Below, one piece after another: positions 1,283-8,483 of a stretch of DNA of 33,705 nucleotides; the stretch's first letter is position 1, and each line of letters starts with the position of its first letter. Position numbers and translations under genes: made by a program. The stretch is from a virus: IMG/VR virus record IMGVR_UViG_3300005617_000310, positions 1 to 33,705 of that record. One strand, given 5' to 3'. The notes below the pieces were generated by a model. The model saw only the letters and a program-made list of their open reading frames with translations, did not search any database and had not been told where the DNA came from.

Positions 1283-2400
1283 TGCACCATCTGCACGTCG
1301 AACGCGAGCGGGTAGATGCCGATCTGGTTGTTCGGCCGCTGGAACGACAGGTCGGGCACGAAGCGCGCGGGCACGAGCGGAACGATCTTCGCGTATCCGG
1401 GCGTGAAGGTTCCCGTGAGCGCGCCCTCGCCTGGGTCGAGCGTGATGCGCGTCGTGTTGATCGTGTCGACGATCTCGACCTCGTAGTTGTCCTCGCTCTC
1501 CCACACCATGAACCGCTGGCGCGGCGCGAACCACCGCGCGGAGAAGTCGCCGCTCGTAAACACTTCGTGCCCGCTGCTCGCGGTCGACGCGAAGGGCACC
1601 GCGTCCTGCCACCGCGGGACCGCCACGAGCTGCCCGTGGTAGCGGTAGAGGAACTGGTCGACCTTCCCCGACGCCTCCGCGTTGAGCGCGCGCACGGAGT
1701 ATTCGAGCCGGCAGCTCGGGATGAGCCGCAAGTTTTCGCGGTACTCGTTGCCGTCCTCGAACTGCTGGAGCGCGGTGAGCCAGCCGTAGGTCTCGCGGTA
1801 GCCATCGGCCCAATCGATGCGGAGCGGGACCACCGGGAGCGTGTTGTCGATCTCGCGCTGGATCTGCCCGTTGCGCATCACGCGAATGTCGTCGAGGCGC
1901 ACCGTCCCGTCGGCGCCGTCCGGGATCCCCGAGACGAACCAGATGTTGCCGTTGAACACCACGGAGTCGATCTGGATGTTCCACGTCCCGGTGACCGTGT
2001 GCCACTCGCCGTCGCAGATTGCGGGGCTCGCCTGGACGGTCTGCGCGAACGGGCCGTTCCCGAACGTGACGCCGATCGTGCAGCCGGCGAAGTCCGCGGG
2101 CGCCTTGTAGCGGAAGCTGATCGTCATCACGTTCGACGTCAGCACGGTGTTCTGGACCCACATGCCGAGCCCGACGCCCGTACTGGTGATGCTGACCGAC
2201 TGCCCGCCGCCCGCCGTGTTGGTGATCGCGAGCGCGAGGTGATTGCGCTGGCCGGAGACGCTGTAGTCCTCGAAGCCGATCGACGGGGTGCAGATGCCCG
2301 CGCTGTCCGTCTCGCCGTAGTACTCGGCGGCCTCGGTCCAGTCGCGATAGCCCTCCCAGTCCTCGTCGAACATCACCATCCCGAGGTCGAACGTTCTCAC
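1279..2400 (-). CDS. distal tail protein with jelly-roll/carbohydrate-binding-like N-terminal domain
   Basis: The 373-residue protein begins at ATG 2400, four bases inside the end of the tape measure gene. Residues about 40-180 are rich in alternating beta strands and end in the pattern RLDDIRVMRNG. Together with ICDGEWHTVTGTWN this looks like a concanavalin/CBM-type jelly roll. The C-terminal half (from about 190, VVPLRIDWADGYRETYGWLT) contains aromatic beta-rich sequence typical of tail-tip proteins, ending QRPNNQIGIYPLAFDVQMVQ. By position it would be a distal tail protein, and the N-terminal domain may bind host glycans. That role is inferred from fold resemblance only. Confidence 0.55.
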   Translation of the reverse strand: MRTFDLGMVMFDEDWEGYRDWTEAAEYYGETDSAGICTPSIGFEDYSVSGQRNHLALAITNTAGGGQSVSITSTGVGLGMWVQNTVLTSNVMTISFRYKAPADFAGCTIGVTFGNGPFAQTVQASPAICDGEWHTVTGTWNIQIDSVVFNGNIWFVSGIPDGADGTVRLDDIRVMRNGQIQREIDNTLPVVPLRIDWADGYRETYGWLTALQQFEDGNEYRENLRLIPSCRLEYSVRALNAEASGKVDQFLYRYHGQLVAVPRWQDAVPFASTASSGHEVFTSGDFSARWFAPRQRFMVWESEDNYEVEIVDTINTTRITLDPGEGALTGTFTPGYAKIVPLVPARFVPDLSFQRPNNQIGIYPLAFDVQMVQ

Positions 2401-5400
2401 GTGAGCACTGCCTTGATCTGCGACTTGTTGGCCTGCATGAGCCGCGTGAGCGCGCGCAGTCCCTTCGTGCCGGAGATGACGCGGACGATGGCGTCCTCGG
2501 AGTGCTCGACCAGGACGTGCAGCGTGTCGTTCCGGGCGGGCGCCGCGGCCGCAGCCTGCTGCTGCTGCTCGATCGTGACGAGTCCGCCCTCGGCGAATTG
2601 CGGCACCCCGATCGAGTCGATCGACGTCACGCGCGGCGTGTGCAGCCCGGCGGTGAACTCGAGGAGCAGCTCGCGCGGGATGCGGAGCGTGCGGATCGCC
2701 TCCATGACCGAGACGCCGTAGTACGCGGTCGCGCGCGCGGGCTGCACGAACTCTCGGTCGGAGAGCCGGGCGGGGATGCTGTCGGAGGTCGCGGTGCCGG
2801 GCCCGCGCACGTAGCCGCCTGACGCGAACGCCTGGACGCTGCTCGTGCTCGAGTGCGCGACGCTCGTCGCCAGCGCCATCACGCGCGCGAACTCGAGGAC
2901 GTCGCGCGCGAGTGTTTCAAACACCCGCCGAATGGTATACTGCACCACCGACAACGAGCGAGTCTCATGGCTGACACTGCTGCTGCGGTCGCCCCGGATG
3001 ACGGAATCATTCGTGAAGGTGAGCCGCTTCCCGACGACTGCAACAAGCGCAGCCAAATTCGCGTGTTGATTGGCAACGACATCGTGCAGGGGTACGCGTG
3101 CTGGTATCCGCAGATGGGCGGCTATGCCGGGAAGGCGCTCGTGACGTTCAACAATGCTGGGATGGCGGGGACGTGCTTTGACGTCTACGTCTGGCACGAT
3201 GGGAACTTTCCGTTCAGCGGCGAGATCTCGCCGCGCATCATCCATCATTGTGACGCGACGCAATTCATTGAGTTCGGTGAGTTTCTGAACTCGCTCCTCC
3301 CGCCCGAATAACGTCTCCCGGATCGTCTGCAGAGTCCTCGACACCAGCGAGCGATGTTCGTGACTGGCACTGAGAAGGAACTCCCGGTCCTCCCGGCTGA
3401 CGCGCCGCTCCTGCGCGGTATCATTGCGCGTGCTGGATCGGTCGGTGAGGTGATGCTCCTGCCGAGCGAGGTGGACCGACTCCGAGCGCTCGCGGAGCTG
3501 CTGGACAAGCTCACGCGCAGTGACGTGGGCGCGGTCAGAGATGCGGTTCGTCAGCTCGACGATCCGCGTGTTGGACACGAGGTCACGTCGGGCGTCCCCA
3601 CCCGGCGGGTCGTGTGTTATGACCTGGAGCGAGTCGCGGCGAACCTCGCTGCGCTCCTGCCGCCCGACCAGCGATGACACCCGGTCGCGCACTGTTTCGA
3701 GCACACGGGTCGCGCTATCGTGCAGGATCCCTAACGCGAGTGTGGCATGGCTGACACGTCCACGATCAAGCCCGCCCTCACGCCCGAGTGGTGGGCCGCC
3801 CTGCGCGAGTTCACGCGGCGGGCCTACTCGGTTGACGACGACACCTGGCTGTTCGACGCCTACATCGGGAACTCGAGCGACAGCCCCACGTACCGGGCCA
3901 ACAGTTGGGACGACGCCGCCGTCGCTATGGCTCTCGCGAACGCTTCGCTCCCTAACGATGATCCGCGAAAGATCACGCGCGACGATGTGAGTTTGCTCGA
4001 GTCGGCGCGGCAGGAGCTCGGAGGCAGGGTGGCGGACGATGTTCGCGTGCTCGCCGCGAAGCTCGCTGCGCTCCTCCCGCCGGAGTGAGGTGAGGCGGTG
4101 TACTGTTTCGACTACCGAGCGGACGACATGAGCGACCAGACTACTACTCCGACGATCGTCCCGGCTAACGCTGCGCTGCTCCGTGATATCGCCACTCTGT
4201 ATGACACGTCCGACTTCCGCGATCACTTCGGTCCGTCGATTTCTGCGCTCCGTACTGCTCTCCGTCTCCGCGCGCTCGCGGATGCGCTCGACAAGATTAC
4301 CGACGAGGACGTGGAGATTGTTTGTCTTGCCAATAAGAAAATCGCGGGCGAGTGGGGCGAGGGGTGGGATGAATTGGGAGCGCTCGCTGTGAAACTCACT
4401 ACGCTGCACCCGGCCCAATAGCGTTTCTCTGATCGTCTCGACAACCCGCGACACCAACGAGCGAGACTCATGACGGACGTCACTAGCGACGCTATCCCGC
4501 CCGCGCTCACCGAGGACCAGTGGGCGGACGCGTTCCGCGTCGTCCCCGGCACGAACGGGACGGGATACGTCATCTCCGAGGGCGGCGAGTGGTGCTGCAC
4601 GATTCGCGGGGCGACCGTCGGCGGCGTGTCGATCGAGGTGCCCTACGACGGGGATGCCGATATTGGACCGAGGCACATCCCCGCGCTGATCGCCCTCGCG
4701 AATGCCGCGCTCCCCGAGAACGACCCGCACAAACTCACGCGCGAGGACGTGGGCGTAATCGGCGACGCGGCGGAGACTATCGCGCAGGAATACGGAATCA
4801 CTGAACCGAACGACAGAGACTTCCCTCGTATGGCTGCGAAAGTGCGAGCGCTCAATGCCCTCGCCGCGAGAGTCGCGGCGCTGCTCCCGCCCGAATAGCA
4901 CGTCGCGGGGAATCTCCCGCCGGCGGAGCGACTCCATGAAGCGCACGCCGTAATGCTCCACCGTGCGCGCCGGCTGGACGAACTCGCCCGCCGAGAGCCG
5001 CGCCGGGATCGAGTCGCTCGTGCCGCTGCCCGGCCCCGTGACGTGACCACCGCTCGCGAACCCTAACGCGGCGGGCAGTGAGGCGAGCCCCGCCTGCAGA
5101 CCCGCCACGGCACCAGCCGCCGCCAGGGCCGCCGCTGCCGCGGTCAGGGCCGCCGCCGCACTGAGGAGGATCCCGCCAGATGCTGTCAGCGCCCCGGCGC
5201 TCCCGCCGAGGCTCACCGCGCTCGTATTGACGACCGCTCCGGCTGCCGAGGTCGCGGTCGCGCTGGCACCTAACGCCGCGGCGGCCGTCGCGATTTGCCC
5301 GCCGCTGGTGCTACGGCCGAGGAGCCCGTCGATCTTCTCGATGATCTGCGCCGACAGGATCTGGGCGGCGATGCGCTGGAAGCTTCCGATGACCGTTGCG

Positions 5401-7766
5401 CCCAACTGGCGGAACGCATCGCCGAGCGACGTCACCTCGTTGATCGCCGAGCCGAGGAATCCGGAGAGGTCCGATTCCGCGGCACTCAGCAGCGAGTCCC
5501 GGAGGTTGGCGATCAGCCGCGTGGACTCGAGCGTGACCTTCCCGATGCTGTTGATGTGCTGCTGGAGCTGATCGGCCGCGTCGAGGAGCGCCGGGTCTTT
5601 CGTCTCCTCCGCGAACTGCCGCATCAGCGTCACGGTCTCCTGCAAGGAGACTTTGTGCTGACGCTCGGACTCCGCGATCGCGAGCACCCCGTCCCGTTCC
5701 GAGATGGTGCCCTCGCTGACCTGCTGCTCGATCGTCGCCCGCTCGCGCGCCAGGACGTTGAGCTCCCGCTCGGCTTTCGCCTGCTGGTCGGCGATCACCG
5801 CGCGGTTCGTGAGCAGCGTCGTGAACGTGCCGACGAGCGCCTCCGACTGCGTGGAGTCCACGCCGAGGTTCGAGAGCACCTCGCGGAAGCGCTCGGCCGC
5901 CTGCGCGATCTGGATTTCCGTGGCCTGCAGCGTCTGGCCCTGTGCGGTCGCGATCTGCGCGATGAACGATGTGAACTCGGTCTCGGCCGACTTCCGCGCA
6001 ACGCGCTCCTGCTCGACGAGCGAGAGCAGCCGCGTCTCGCCCTCGACCTTCGTGCGCGCGATCGACGCTTCGAGCGCCTGGATCTCGGTCGTGCGCTGAG
6101 TCCGCGCGGCCTCGGTGTTCTCGGTGAGCGGCTCGGCCTTGAGTCGGGTGAGCTGCTGGTTCTGCGCCTTGAGCTCGGCCGCGATCCCCTGCTCGACGAT
6201 ATTCGTGCGGGCGCGGAAGAATCCGGAGAGGGACGTGAGGCGCTGCGCGAACCGCTCGTTCTCGATCTCCTCCGTCTCCGCGAGCCCTGCGCGCGTGGCC
6301 GCGAGCTCGTCCTGCGCCGCCTGCCGGATCTGCGCGAGCTGTGCCGCGCGCGCCGCCTTCTCGGCCGCCGGGTCGGGGATCGCGATCGTCCCCTTCTTCT
6401 GCCCCGTGGGGTTCGTCGCCACGAGCGCGGCCAGCTTGTCGTCCTTGTCGAGCGCCGAAAGGTCGCTGCCGAGCTCCTTGACGAGCGCGGAGGAGGACGC
6501 CGCCGCGGCGCCGAGACCAGTGATCGCCCCGATGATCGCCGCAATCACCCCGACCCCCGATACCTCGGCGAGCGCGCCGAGCGCGAACACGAGCGCGCCG
6601 ACCGCGCCGGCCAGTACCAGCGCCGCCGCGCCCGCAACGCCGGCACCCACCATGAACGCCTTGAGCGGTCCCGGGAGCTTCCCGAGGAACTCCGCGACCC
6701 CGTTGATGAGGTTCGAAAGCCCTTGGAGCGGCCCGGCGAGCTGGTTGGTGAAGCCACTGAGCGACGACCGGAGGTTCACGAGGGCGTCATTGAACTCGCC
6801 GGCCGCGTGCGCCGCGTCGCCACTCAACACAGCGCCTAACGCTTCAGCCTTCTCGCGGGCGCGGTCGAATCCGCCGTTCGCCAGCTGCTCGAGCAGCGGG
6901 ATGAGCTGTTCACCAGCGCGCCCGAAGATCTGTGTGGCGACGGCGGACTTGCCCGACCCATCTTCGAACTTCGCCATCGCGTTTGCGACGCGGATGAGCA
7001 CTTGGTCGAGCGAGAGCCCCTTGAGATCATTCGCCGAGAGTCCGATCGCGCGGAACGAAGCGGCCGCCTGCTGGTTTCCACTCCGCATGTCCTCGAGCGT
7101 CTTGGCGAGCTGGCGGAATCCGGTCGCCAGTGACTCCGTGTCAGCACCGGCCTTTTTCGCCTCGGCAGCCAGGACCGACAACGACTCGACGGACACACCG
7201 GTGCGCTGCGACAGTTCCTCCATCGAGTCGGCGGCGTCGATCGCGTCCTTTGCGATCCCGAGTAGGCGGATCGCGCCGATTGCCGCGGCGATCGAGACGA
7301 GCGTGGCGTGGAGCTGCTGGAACCGGCTGAGCGCCCCCTGCGGGACGTCGGGGGTCGCGCCCTGGATCGTGCTTCGGATGGTTGCGAGCTCGCGCTCAAG
7401 CTGGATGCGCTGCTCGAGCGTCAGGTTCGACTGCTGGAGCGCCTTCTGGAGCTGGAGCTCCGCCGCCTGCAGTTTCGTGAGCGACGCCGAGCGCGTGCTC
7501 GCCGACTGGAGCCCCTGGCCCAACAGCGCCACGCGCTTGCTGATCGCGTCGAGCCCGCCCGTGCTGGACCGGAGCCCGATGATCGACTTCGACATCCGAT
7601 CGAAGCCGTCCGCCGCGGTCTTCACTGGCGCGGCGAGCGTGCCGGCCGACGCCGCAGCGTCCTTCTGCTGCTTATCCAGCTGCCGCAGCACCTCGAGGAG
7701 TTTGCGGGCGACGTCGGTCGCCTGATCGTCTGCCGAAAAACGAACTTGAACGTTAGGTGTCGTCAT
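2397..7766 (-). CDS. tail tape measure protein, frame interrupted by an antisense gene array
   Basis: The frame of 1789 codons starts at ATG 7766. Residues 1-950 look like a genuine tape measure protein: an N-terminal VRFSADDQATDVARKLLEVL, long Ala/Gln/Glu helices, a very hydrophobic stretch around residues 370-430, and a glycine-rich motif FASGGHVTGPGSGTSDSIPARLS near 4.9-5.06 kb. Residues about 955-1630 (2.88-4.9 kb) are Arg/Glu/Val-rich with almost no Trp, Tyr or Phe and look like the antisense image of five plus-strand genes. The last 160 residues regain normal composition and carry a second SDSIPARLS motif and an AEGG-type tail. The protein normally sets tail length and enters during DNA ejection. 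Either the whole frame is translated or the gene is split; the sequence alone does not decide. Confidence 0.85.
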   Translation of the reverse strand: MTTPNVQVRFSADDQATDVARKLLEVLRQLDKQQKDAAASAGTLAAPVKTAADGFDRMSKSIIGLRSSTGGLDAISKRVALLGQGLQSASTRSASLTKLQAAELQLQKALQQSNLTLEQRIQLERELATIRSTIQGATPDVPQGALSRFQQLHATLVSIAAAIGAIRLLGIAKDAIDAADSMEELSQRTGVSVESLSVLAAEAKKAGADTESLATGFRQLAKTLEDMRSGNQQAAASFRAIGLSANDLKGLSLDQVLIRVANAMAKFEDGSGKSAVATQIFGRAGEQLIPLLEQLANGGFDRAREKAEALGAVLSGDAAHAAGEFNDALVNLRSSLSGFTNQLAGPLQGLSNLINGVAEFLGKLPGPLKAFMVGAGVAGAAALVLAGAVGALVFALGALAEVSGVGVIAAIIGAITGLGAAAASSSALVKELGSDLSALDKDDKLAALVATNPTGQKKGTIAIPDPAAEKAARAAQLAQIRQAAQDELAATRAGLAETEEIENERFAQRLTSLSGFFRARTNIVEQGIAAELKAQNQQLTRLKAEPLTENTEAARTQRTTEIQALEASIARTKVEGETRLLSLVEQERVARKSAETEFTSFIAQIATAQGQTLQATEIQIAQAAERFREVLSNLGVDSTQSEALVGTFTTLLTNRAVIADQQAKAERELNVLARERATIEQQVSEGTISERDGVLAIAESERQHKVSLQETVTLMRQFAEETKDPALLDAADQLQQHINSIGKVTLESTRLIANLRDSLLSAAESDLSGFLGSAINEVTSLGDAFRQLGATVIGSFQRIAAQILSAQIIEKIDGLLGRSTSGGQIATAAAALGASATATSAAGAVVNTSAVSLGGSAGALTASGGILLSAAAALTAAAAALAAAGAVAGLQAGLASLPAALGFASGGHVTGPGSGTSDSIPARLSAGEFVQPARTVEHYGVRFMESLRRREIPRDVLFGREQRRDSRGEGIERSHFRSHTREVSVVRFSDSVFLRDSLRRVADYAHVLAREFVRVVLGERGIREGDQRGDVPRSNIGIPVVGHLDRHAADGRPANRAAPLAALGDDVSRPVRAGDDAERVRPLVLGERGRDSVASDVRHESRSLVSRVVETIRETLLGRVQRSEFHSERSQFIPPLAPLARDFLIGKTNNLHVLVGNLVERIRERAETESSTERRNRRTEVIAEVGRVIQSGDITEQRSVSRDDRRSSSLVAHVVRSVVETVHRLTSLRREERSELRGEHANIVRHPASELLPRRLEQTHIVARDLSRIIVRERSVRESHSDGGVVPTVGPVRGAVARVPDVGVEQPGVVVNRVGPPRELAQGGPPLGREGGLDRGRVSHATLALGILHDSATRVLETVRDRVSSLVGRQERSEVRRDSLQVITHDPPGGDARRDLVSNTRIVELTNRISDRAHVTARELVQQLRERSESVHLARQEHHLTDRSSTRNDTAQERRVSREDREFLLSASHEHRSLVSRTLQTIRETLFGREERVQKLTELNELRRVTMMDDARRDLAAERKVPIVPDVDVKARPRHPSIVERHERLPGIAAHLRIPARVPLHDVVANQHANLAALVAVVGKRLTFTNDSVIRGDRSSSVSHETRSLSVVQYTIRRVFETLARDVLEFARVMALATSVAHSSTSSVQAFASGGYVRGPGTATSDSIPARLSDREFVQPARATAYYGVSVMEAIRTLRIPRELLLEFTAGLHTPRVTSIDSIGVPQFAEGGLVTIEQQQQAAAAAPARNDTLHVLVEHSEDAIVRVISGTKGLRALTRLMQANKSQIKAVLT
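2662..2832 (-). repeat. tape measure SDSIPARLS motif, copy 2 (C-terminal)
   Basis: This encodes the FASGGYV..GPG..TSDSIPARLS..EFVQPA..YYGV..ME.I...IPREL module of about 55 residues. The same module is encoded at 4900-5062. At DNA level the two copies are clearly diverged, so the duplication is not recent. This motif is usually seen once, near the C-terminus of tape measure proteins. Confidence 0.7.
2912..2941 (+). promoter_or_regulatory. candidate promoter/operator of the plus-strand array
   Basis: TGTTTC at 2913-2918 and TATACT at 2936-2941 are separated by 17 bp, a plausible -35/-10 pair, 26 bp upstream of the first array ATG. The -35 box lies inside a perfect odd palindrome GTGTTTCAAACAC (2912-2924), a possible operator. 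TGTTTC also recurs upstream of the third gene (with TATCGT 17 bp downstream) and of the fourth gene. Confidence 0.45.
2967..3311 (+). CDS. array gene 1: small protein with LLPPE tail, unknown function
   Basis: The 114-residue product begins MADTAAAVAPDDGI and ends FGEFLNSLLPPE. It has normal protein composition (three Trp, several Tyr, Cys and Phe: QGYACWYPQMGGYAGKALV, FDVYVWHDGNFPFSG), arguing that this strand is the coding one here. No family is recognised. The ATG is preceded by the leader ACAACGAGCGAGTCTC, nearly repeated before array gene 5. It lies wholly antisense to the tape measure frame with aligned codon boundaries. It differs from the other four members except in the N- and C-terminal ends, so it may be a distant relative or a different insert sharing the cassette ends. 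Confidence 0.65.
   Translation: MADTAAAVAPDDGIIREGEPLPDDCNKRSQIRVLIGNDIVQGYACWYPQMGGYAGKALVTFNNAGMAGTCFDVYVWHDGNFPFSGEISPRIIHHCDATQFIEFGEFLNSLLPPE
3354..3677 (+). CDS. array gene 2: small LLPPD-tail protein
   Basis: The 107-residue helical protein contains RLRALAELLDKLTRSDVGAV and ends LERVAANLAALLPPDQR. Both segments align with array genes 3-5 (ALA..L.K.TR.DV and LA.KLAALLPPE). The leader GACACCAGCGAGCG before the ATG matches that of array gene 5 (GACACCAACGAGCG). The annotated ATG lies slightly closer to the leader than in gene 5, so the true start could be shifted. Function unknown; gap to array gene 1 is 42 bp. Confidence 0.6.
   Translation: MFVTGTEKELPVLPADAPLLRGIIARAGSVGEVMLLPSEVDRLRALAELLDKLTRSDVGAVRDAVRQLDDPRVGHEVTSGVPTRRVVCYDLERVAANLAALLPPDQR
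3747..4088 (+). CDS. array gene 3: small LLPPE-tail protein
   Basis: The 113-residue protein begins MADTSTIKPALTPEWWAALR, closely parallel to array gene 5 (TDVTSDAIPPALTEDQWADA). It carries ALANASLPNDDPRKITRDDV (about residues 62-81) and ends LAAKLAALLPPE. The central segment is the best-conserved block of the family. Upstream at about 3690-3715 is another TGTTTC-17-TATCGT arrangement. Function is not recognised; acidic and helical, probably cytoplasmic. Confidence 0.65.
   Translation: MADTSTIKPALTPEWWAALREFTRRAYSVDDDTWLFDAYIGNSSDSPTYRANSWDDAAVAMALANASLPNDDPRKITRDDVSLLESARQELGGRVADDVRVLAAKLAALLPPE
4128..4421 (+). CDS. array gene 4: small protein, degenerate tail
   Basis: The 97-residue protein starts MSDQTTTPTIVPANAALLRD. 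An in-frame GTG at 4098 upstream is less likely because TGTTTC precedes this ATG much as in the other units. It shares RLRALADALDKITDEDVEIV with array gene 2 and ends LAVKLTTLHPAQ, a diverged form of LAAKLAALLPPE. Base composition is visibly lower in GC than the flanking phage genes (for example TTTGTCTTGCCAATAAGAAAA near 4320). Function unknown. Confidence 0.6.
   Translation: MSDQTTTPTIVPANAALLRDIATLYDTSDFRDHFGPSISALRTALRLRALADALDKITDEDVEIVCLANKKIAGEWGEGWDELGALAVKLTTLHPAQ
4470..4898 (+). CDS. array gene 5: small LLPPE-tail protein
   Basis: The 142-residue protein starts MTDVTSDAIPPALTEDQWAD after the conserved leader ACACCAACGAGCGAGACTC. A beta-rich insert (YVISEGGEWCCTIRGATVGG) precedes LIALANAALPENDPHKLTRE, matching array gene 3, and it ends VAALLPPE. 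The stop TAG is read as Leu in the opposite tape measure frame, whose motif copy 1 begins immediately beyond. Function unknown; last unit of the array. Confidence 0.65.
   Translation: MTDVTSDAIPPALTEDQWADAFRVVPGTNGTGYVISEGGEWCCTIRGATVGGVSIEVPYDGDADIGPRHIPALIALANAALPENDPHKLTREDVGVIGDAAETIAQEYGITEPNDRDFPRMAAKVRALNALAARVAALLPPE
4900..5062 (-). repeat. tape measure SDSIPARLS motif, copy 1
   Basis: This is the first copy of the glycine-rich SDSIPARLS module (GFASGGHVTGPG..TSDSIPARLS.GEFVQPA..HYGV..MESL...IPRDV). It abuts the 3' end of the plus-strand array: the residues following IPRDVL are already the antisense image of the LLPPE end of the last plus-strand gene. Confidence 0.7.
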
Positions 7767-7817: not shown

Positions 7818-8483
7818 ATGAAAGGAAAGACGTGCGGGAAGTGCGGAACGCACTACGAGGACGCCGACGCCAATTTCCTGCGCCGCAGCGCCGGGAGTCG
7901 TGGCTATCGCTCGCCATGCAGGGCGTGCATGCGCGAGTACAACCGCCAGTGGAAGCTCAATGACCCTGGCCATCAGGCGCGACAGAACGCGGCGCGGCGC
8001 GAGCGTCGACTTGTAGACCCGGCATGGGCAGATAAGGACCGTCGAGAGTCGCTTGCTTACTACCAGCGCAATCGCGAGGCGGTCAAAGCGACGGTGCGGT
8101 CGTACCGGAAGCGGAATCCGGAGAAGGTCCGCGAGTGCTACTACAAGTGGCGCAAGGCCAACCTTCCAGAAGTATTGCGCCGCCAAAAGGCGTATGTCGC
8201 TCGGGAGCGCGAGACGCACCGGATGTGGGCGCGGCTTAAGTCGCACAGGCGGCGAGCACGCCTGAGAGGAGCGCCCGGGACCGCGACCCGCGAACAGGTG
8301 ATGGCGCGCGTCGCGTACTATGGCGGACGCTGCTGGATGTGCGGTGCCGAATGGCGCGACATCGATCATGTCATCCCCATCTCGCGGGGCGGAAGCAACT
8401 GGCCCGCGAACCTCCGCCCGGCCTGCGGCGCCTGCAACCGGCGCAAGAGAGATCGCCTTCCGTCCGAACTCAGAGCGTCGTAG
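7818..8483 (+). CDS. free-standing HNH endonuclease
   Basis: The 221-residue protein has an N-terminal zinc-ribbon-like part (CGKC at about 6-9, CRAC at about 33-36). A long basic helical region follows, then a C-terminal HNH domain: CWMCGAEWRDIDHVIPISRG then NLRPACGACNRRKRD, with the two Cys pairs and the catalytic DHV His. Such enzymes cut DNA and often act as homing endonucleases or packaging accessories. Here the gene lies opposite to its neighbours between the tail chaperone and tape measure genes, with CCTAACG just before its ATG and CGTTAGG just after its stop. That position suggests an inserted selfish gene rather than a packaging partner. Confidence 0.85.
   Translation: MKGKTCGKCGTHYEDADANFLRRSAGSRGYRSPCRACMREYNRQWKLNDPGHQARQNAARRERRLVDPAWADKDRRESLAYYQRNREAVKATVRSYRKRNPEKVRECYYKWRKANLPEVLRRQKAYVARERETHRMWARLKSHRRRARLRGAPGTATREQVMARVAYYGGRCWMCGAEWRDIDHVIPISRGGSNWPANLRPACGACNRRKRDRLPSELRAS

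Follow-up and report, generated by a model that had tools for sequence, protein, structure and literature searches.

How can five genes on one strand lie within a gene on the opposite strand whose reading frame never closes beneath them? The window, i.e., the whole stretch of DNA analysed, is a single virus record of 33,705 bases (IMGVR_UViG_3300005617_000310, IMG/VR) with a genome G+C content of 67%, and the integrase, terminase, portal, head and tail genes on its minus strand identify a temperate siphophage, the remaining structural genes of which are long, intact ORFs. The reading favoured here, which we consider probable, is that of a moron-like accessory array dual-coded antisense within the tape measure gene of this phage.

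Five genes antisense to an open tape measure frame

The minus-strand ORF at 2397-7766 matches PHROG tail-length tape-measure families at residues ~133-957 and ~1605-1782, which flank the array, and, judged by this family similarity on either side within a single frame, it is a phage tape measure protein (TMP). The features concerned are the following.

2397-7766, minus strand: TMP ORF, 1789 aa, open across the array; 1122 aa without the array segment
4908-7766, minus strand: TMP portion upstream of the array, residues 1-953, resembling Gemmatimonadota prophage TMPs
4896-5065, minus strand: first copy of the TMP motif, FASGGHVTGPG..SDSIPARLS..IPRDVL, mostly single-copy in relatives
2397-2898, minus strand: C-terminal part of the TMP, with the linker EFARVMALATS..., motif copy 2 and the C-terminus
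2899-4899, plus strand: putatively inserted array, in the TMP frame, 2001 bp or 667 codons (TMP residues 958-1624)
2967-3311, plus strand: array gene 1, 114 aa, of a family whose core is YACWYPQMGGY...HHCDA and which recurs in other phage contigs
3354-3677, plus strand: array gene 2, 107 aa, distant member of the ALTPxEW..LAALLPPE family
3747-4088, plus strand: array gene 3, 113 aa, ALTPxEW..ALANxxLPxxDPRKIT..LAALLPPE family
4128-4421, plus strand: array gene 4, 97 aa, similar to gene 2, marginal family member (E 0.08)
4470-4898, plus strand: array gene 5, 142 aa, grouped with gene 3 in one family

The plus-strand ORFs start at 2967, 3354, 3747, 4128 and 4470, each a multiple of three, and all five have codon boundaries in common with the minus-strand TMP frame, which confirms the original observation of five codon-aligned ORFs in an open tape measure frame: over 2899-4899 the codon-aligned minus frame has 0 stops and the other two have 34 and 11. 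The five genes and their gaps never close the TMP frame, so that both frames are open across the entire overlap, which measures 667 codons rather than the ~675 first given.

A codon-aligned antisense frame is closed only by TTA, CTA and TCA, which are rare at 67% G+C, and among 22 members of the array-gene family located elsewhere this frame is open in 10, the shifted frames being open in 0 and 1. At this base composition codon-aligned openness taken alone is weak evidence (P ~0.03-0.05). By contrast, five genes that are aligned, open and followed by an in-frame exit have a chance probability of ~3e-5 to 1e-4, an estimate that is our own arithmetic, takes the genes as independent and was computed after the fact. 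The earlier claim that the arrangement is unlikely by chance thus holds for these features jointly and not for openness by itself; chance openness survives as an account of the latter, and was ruled out once the register and the purging of codons described below were added.

Codon choice and selection on the two strands

The codon NCA on the plus strand is read as Cys, Trp or stop on the minus strand, and YTA as stop. Within the array, none of the 233 Ala, Ser, Pro, Thr and Leu codons is NCA or YTA. Codons ending in A are not generally avoided there, because the remaining ones amount to 32 of 206 (15.5%), a frequency equal to that of the homologs. When synonymous codons were redrawn with the third-base usage of the phage, the homologs or the array, 12.3, 15.6 and 13.8 NCA/YTA codons were expected, respectively, with probabilities of finding none of 3e-6, 9e-8 and 7e-7. 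The same redraw for the Cys codons alone gave P = 0.003 to 0.0001, the Cys/Trp signal having been spotted post hoc, following a scan of nine composition features. A CA-dinucleotide or mutational bias is ruled out by codon phase, since CA occurs 0 times at codon positions 2-3 of the array and 19 and 50 times in the other two phases. As for the frequency of NCA/YTA codons elsewhere, homologs have 0-7 each (absent from 1 of 21), every 573-codon stretch in the other genes of the phage has at least 4, and an HNH endonuclease gene that lies on the plus strand and is not antisense to the TMP uses them normally.

On the protein side, the TMP contains 0 Cys and 0 Trp in all 1789 residues; Cys is absent from 39 of 60 related TMPs, and Trp is present in most of them (median 4). 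Read in the TMP frame, the array segment is Arg/Glu-rich and drifts with the third positions of the plus-strand codons, and it therefore looks like a spacer under constraint to stay open and to lack Cys and Trp. The array is enriched in codons ending in T, and there is a small chance that its donor had an unusual bias against NCA. Its Ala and Thr codons are shifted toward GCT and ACT, which are Ser on the minus strand, and CCT, TCT and CTT are not raised, a pattern that is suggestive only.

The plus strand bears a signature of its own. Within the main block of each pair, gene 3 and gene 5 differ at 4, 1 and 12 sites at plus-strand codon positions 1, 2 and 3, and gene 2 and gene 4 at 4, 3 and 7; the concentration of gene-to-gene differences at position 3 points to protein-level selection on the plus strand. 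The genes of the array are genuine coding sequences, relatives of which occur elsewhere, and the plus strand is the older coding layer. The codon choice of the array suggests that protein is made from each strand, so that ~2,000 bases would serve twice, which is rare, and selection appears to act on the proteins of both, on the minus strand in the form of stop, Cys and Trp avoidance only. The earlier proposals of an array kept such that the tape measure can still be read across it, and of true overlapping genes, draw support from frame and register; stronger support comes from the complete lack, among 233 codons, of plus-strand codons giving stop, Cys or Trp on the minus strand.

Probable insertion site, gene families and probable host

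The array, 3 x 667 nucleotides long, is bounded by a short direct repeat, and a further repeat element precedes each of its genes.

2899-2906: left copy of the short direct repeat, ACGTCGCG
4900-4907: right copy of ACGTCGCG
2895-2939, plus strand: repeat element preceding gene 1, with the palindrome GTGTTTCAAACAC followed by TATACT, which the element overlaps
3306-3350, plus strand: repeat element preceding gene 2
3675-3719, plus strand: repeat element preceding gene 3
4086-4130, plus strand: repeat element preceding gene 4, a weak copy
4416-4460, plus strand: repeat element preceding gene 5
7818-8483, plus strand: HNH endonuclease gene, 50 bp from the TMP start, with CCTAACG copies on its flanks
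3730, 3951, 5062, 5269, 7751, 7771, 7807 and 8492: examples of CCTAACG copies

On the minus strand, the direct repeat extends to 11 bp with one mismatch (CGCGACGTSCT) and codes RDVL in the TMP frame. When the array is excised in silico, IPRDVL joins EFARVM, which parallels the IPRELLLEF past the second motif. Two copies of the TMP motif, 64% identical over 56 residues, bracket the array, and the C-terminal part of the TMP is 62% identical to that of L040 (query residues 21-105). Related TMPs, among them those of L032, L034, L040 and L067, are array-free and carry a single FASGG...SDSIPARLS motif, close to the C-terminus; in L092 and L086 the motif is present twice, and what lies between the copies reads as ordinary TMP sequence. 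These relatives were obtained from PHROG and motif alignments, as a search of IMG/VR for whole-TMP relatives by peptide patterns returned none. The array thus appears to have been inserted between two older copies of the TMP motif. Insertion had been proposed from the outset, and it is supported both by these TMP relatives, which are distant and have one flanking motif copy without an array, and by the location of relatives of genes 1, 3 and 5 elsewhere in other phages and genomes. The arrangement is known from one metagenomic contig only, and the searches turned up no close relative, whether carrying the array at this exact site or lacking it there.

The five genes belong to at least two unrelated families and differ in G+C. 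The family of genes 3 and 5 was detected in 22 of 395 Gemmatimonadota genomes searched and also occurs in the phage contigs L004 and L188-L190; in L003 a member adjoins terminase and portal genes. In phage contig L190 (8001-8342, plus strand) a gene 3 family member is flanked by head morphogenesis-like and scaffold-like genes, and its protein is identical to one in the Gemmatimonadota contig L147. Outside the array, members are solitary except for one chromosomal pair, in the Gemmatimonadota contig L146 (7678-8780, minus strand), where two related members lie close together and each adjoins a related membrane-protein-like ORF, forming a duplicated two-gene unit. Single family members thus do occur outside a tape measure gene, as expected of an acquired family, and the whole array was not found elsewhere. 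The gene 1 family (YACWYPQMGGY) has four relatives in IMG/VR and none in 201 genomes of the order of G259, a search run without a positive control, and a plasmid search with gene 5 as query gave no match. Pfam, PHROGs and NCBIfam yielded no usable match for the array proteins. The structure model of the gene 3 family is mostly helical (pLDDT 81.6) and has no fold match in the PDB; that of gene 1 is poor (pLDDT 67.8), and no sequence relatives of gene 1 were found in the PDB. The five proteins are probably products of accessory genes.

The repeat element is common to all five gaps and distinct from the remainder of the window, and it may hold promoter or operator sites. A consensus promoter scan gave a single promoter-like site, inside gene 2, with no clear promoter and no terminator. 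The start of gene 2 may be GTG 3360 and not ATG 3354, given that the start-proximal repeat CAACGAGCGAGnCTC-ATG (family D3) aligns at 3360. An origin of the gap elements as remnants of the TMP motif, to which an apparent similarity (ETIRETL / MEAIRTL) pointed, was considered and dropped, the TMP motif ranking only 5th among TMP positions outside the array.

The host of the phage is probably a member of the Gemmatimonadota, as indicated by the array-gene family, the closest TMPs (L034, L032, L185) and a common over-represented motif, GCCTAACG. CCTAACG, which is part of this motif, is the top over-represented 7-mer family of the whole window, with 25 copies against 1.6 expected. It is frequent also in the Gemmatimonadota contigs L149, L155, L159, L162 and L163, not in other such contigs, and in L009, the closest terminase relative; by its distribution it is a lineage signature. 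Near the TMP, the HNH gene is the sole other clear plus-strand gene seen.

Competing explanations and known systems

According to the preferred reading, the 2,001-bp array would have entered the TMP between its two C-terminal motif copies, at the short repeat, and would have persisted with all its genes in the sole antisense register that is open at high G+C, after which selection would have purged the synonymous codons that place a stop, Cys or Trp in the TMP. During lytic growth the late minus-strand transcript would give the 1789-residue TMP, with the array segment as an Arg/Glu-rich spacer whose length and composition, but not its exact sequence, would be under constraint. In the lysogen, expression of the plus-strand genes would be driven by sites within the repeated gaps, and the minus-strand late operon would be read after induction, so that the two strands would be used at different times. 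Translation of the TMP through the array, the tail length and the function of the array genes are what we infer from the sequence. By our own scaling from P. freudenreichii phages, in which TMPs of 1132 aa and 1326 aa go with tails of ~160 nm and ~190 nm (PMC5831693), a TMP of 1789 aa predicts a tail of ~255 nm and one of 1122 aa a tail of ~160 nm.

Alternatively, the array may have broken the TMP gene of a now-defective prophage, in which case the open frame would be a by-product of high-G+C codon usage and the lack of NCA codons would trace to a codon bias in the donor from which the array came; we hold this account, both parts taken together, to be unlikely. Codon-aligned antisense frames are indeed commonly open at such G+C (10 of 22 homologs), the raised T-ending codons give the array a composition unlike that of the phage, and a single contig is known, but register, openness and in-frame exit combine to a probability of ~1e-4 or less, NCA and YTA are absent although other A-ending codons are common, NCA codons are present in the homologs, and the other structural genes are intact, long ORFs. 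A chimeric join of unrelated DNA to the TMP gene during assembly would likewise fit with one metagenomic contig; a random join would not enter and leave the TMP in frame with five genes aligned, and cannot account for codon purging specific to the TMP frame, so that such an artefact is very improbable.

An active cassette system, with the gap elements as recombination sites, one-by-one addition of cassettes to coding sequence and possible spread by the HNH endonuclease close by, would explain the repeat element shared by the five gaps and distinct from the rest of the window, the descent of five genes of differing G+C from at least two unrelated families, the 8-11 bp direct repeat on the flanks and the HNH gene 50 bp from the TMP start. 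Nevertheless, a promoter or operator fits the gap element equally well, and family members elsewhere are solitary, bar the chromosomal pair. No attC-like pairs (core motifs RYYYAAC...GTTRRRY) were found between the array genes and no IntI integrase beside the array, the sole integrase seen being that of the phage (28995-30200). Terminal inverted repeats are also missing, the array proteins have no transposase match, and a direct repeat on the flanks does not by itself suffice to assign a DDE transposon; Rfam gave no match anywhere in the window (group I/II introns, other RNA elements). Integron cassettes, a transposon and an Rfam element are therefore unsupported by these searches, and the suggestion of a cassette system adapted to an essential gene was not borne out, there being no attC-like pairs, inverted repeats, dedicated recombinase or second array among ~60 related TMPs. 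We regard an active system of this kind as improbable, and give equally little weight to the broader idea that the TMP gene is a landing site for coding-compatible cassettes, perhaps spread by the neighbouring HNH endonuclease, which would enter in the sole open register, lengthen the ruler and place lysogeny genes antisense.

Returning to the moron-like array, phage morons are additional genes lodged between those of a phage and often equipped with expression signals of their own. The array genes resemble them in being small, accessory, of mixed sources and set against the late operon of a temperate phage. They are absent at that position from related (distant) phages, and their relatives are accessory genes in other phages, located near terminase or portal or between head genes. 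Unlike morons, which normally lie between genes, the five are inside an essential gene with the host frame open throughout. In TMPs with inserted domains, the insertions are sense-strand domains; in-frame enlargement is common to both cases, whereas the array segment is the antisense of other genes. The start-associated sequences of small phage genes, in which a repeated element stands ahead of each of several small genes, have a similar repeat-before-gene layout (only the layout was compared), but the array elements also code on the minus strand. Antisense overlapping genes are known in prokaryotes, for example pop antisense to ompA (PMC7103648; review PMC7457138), and as in that type of overlap one DNA stretch apparently encodes proteins on opposite strands. 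There, however, the nested ORF is usually young, whereas here the nested five are the older layer and the host frame would have gained ~2 kb; five genes in one register are unusual, and the codon evidence indicates constraint on both strands. A literature search, with incomplete open coverage, found no described case of a five-gene antisense array inside a TMP.

If translation is confirmed, the locus would represent ~2 kb of codon-aligned antisense dual coding with selection on both layers, and the cost of dual coding would be readable from codon choices. A simple screen is suggested by this, namely for genes without NCA and YTA codons antisense to long phage ORFs. The locus would also be a natural test of the tolerance of a TMP for 667 near-arbitrary residues, and of a matching lengthening of the tail.
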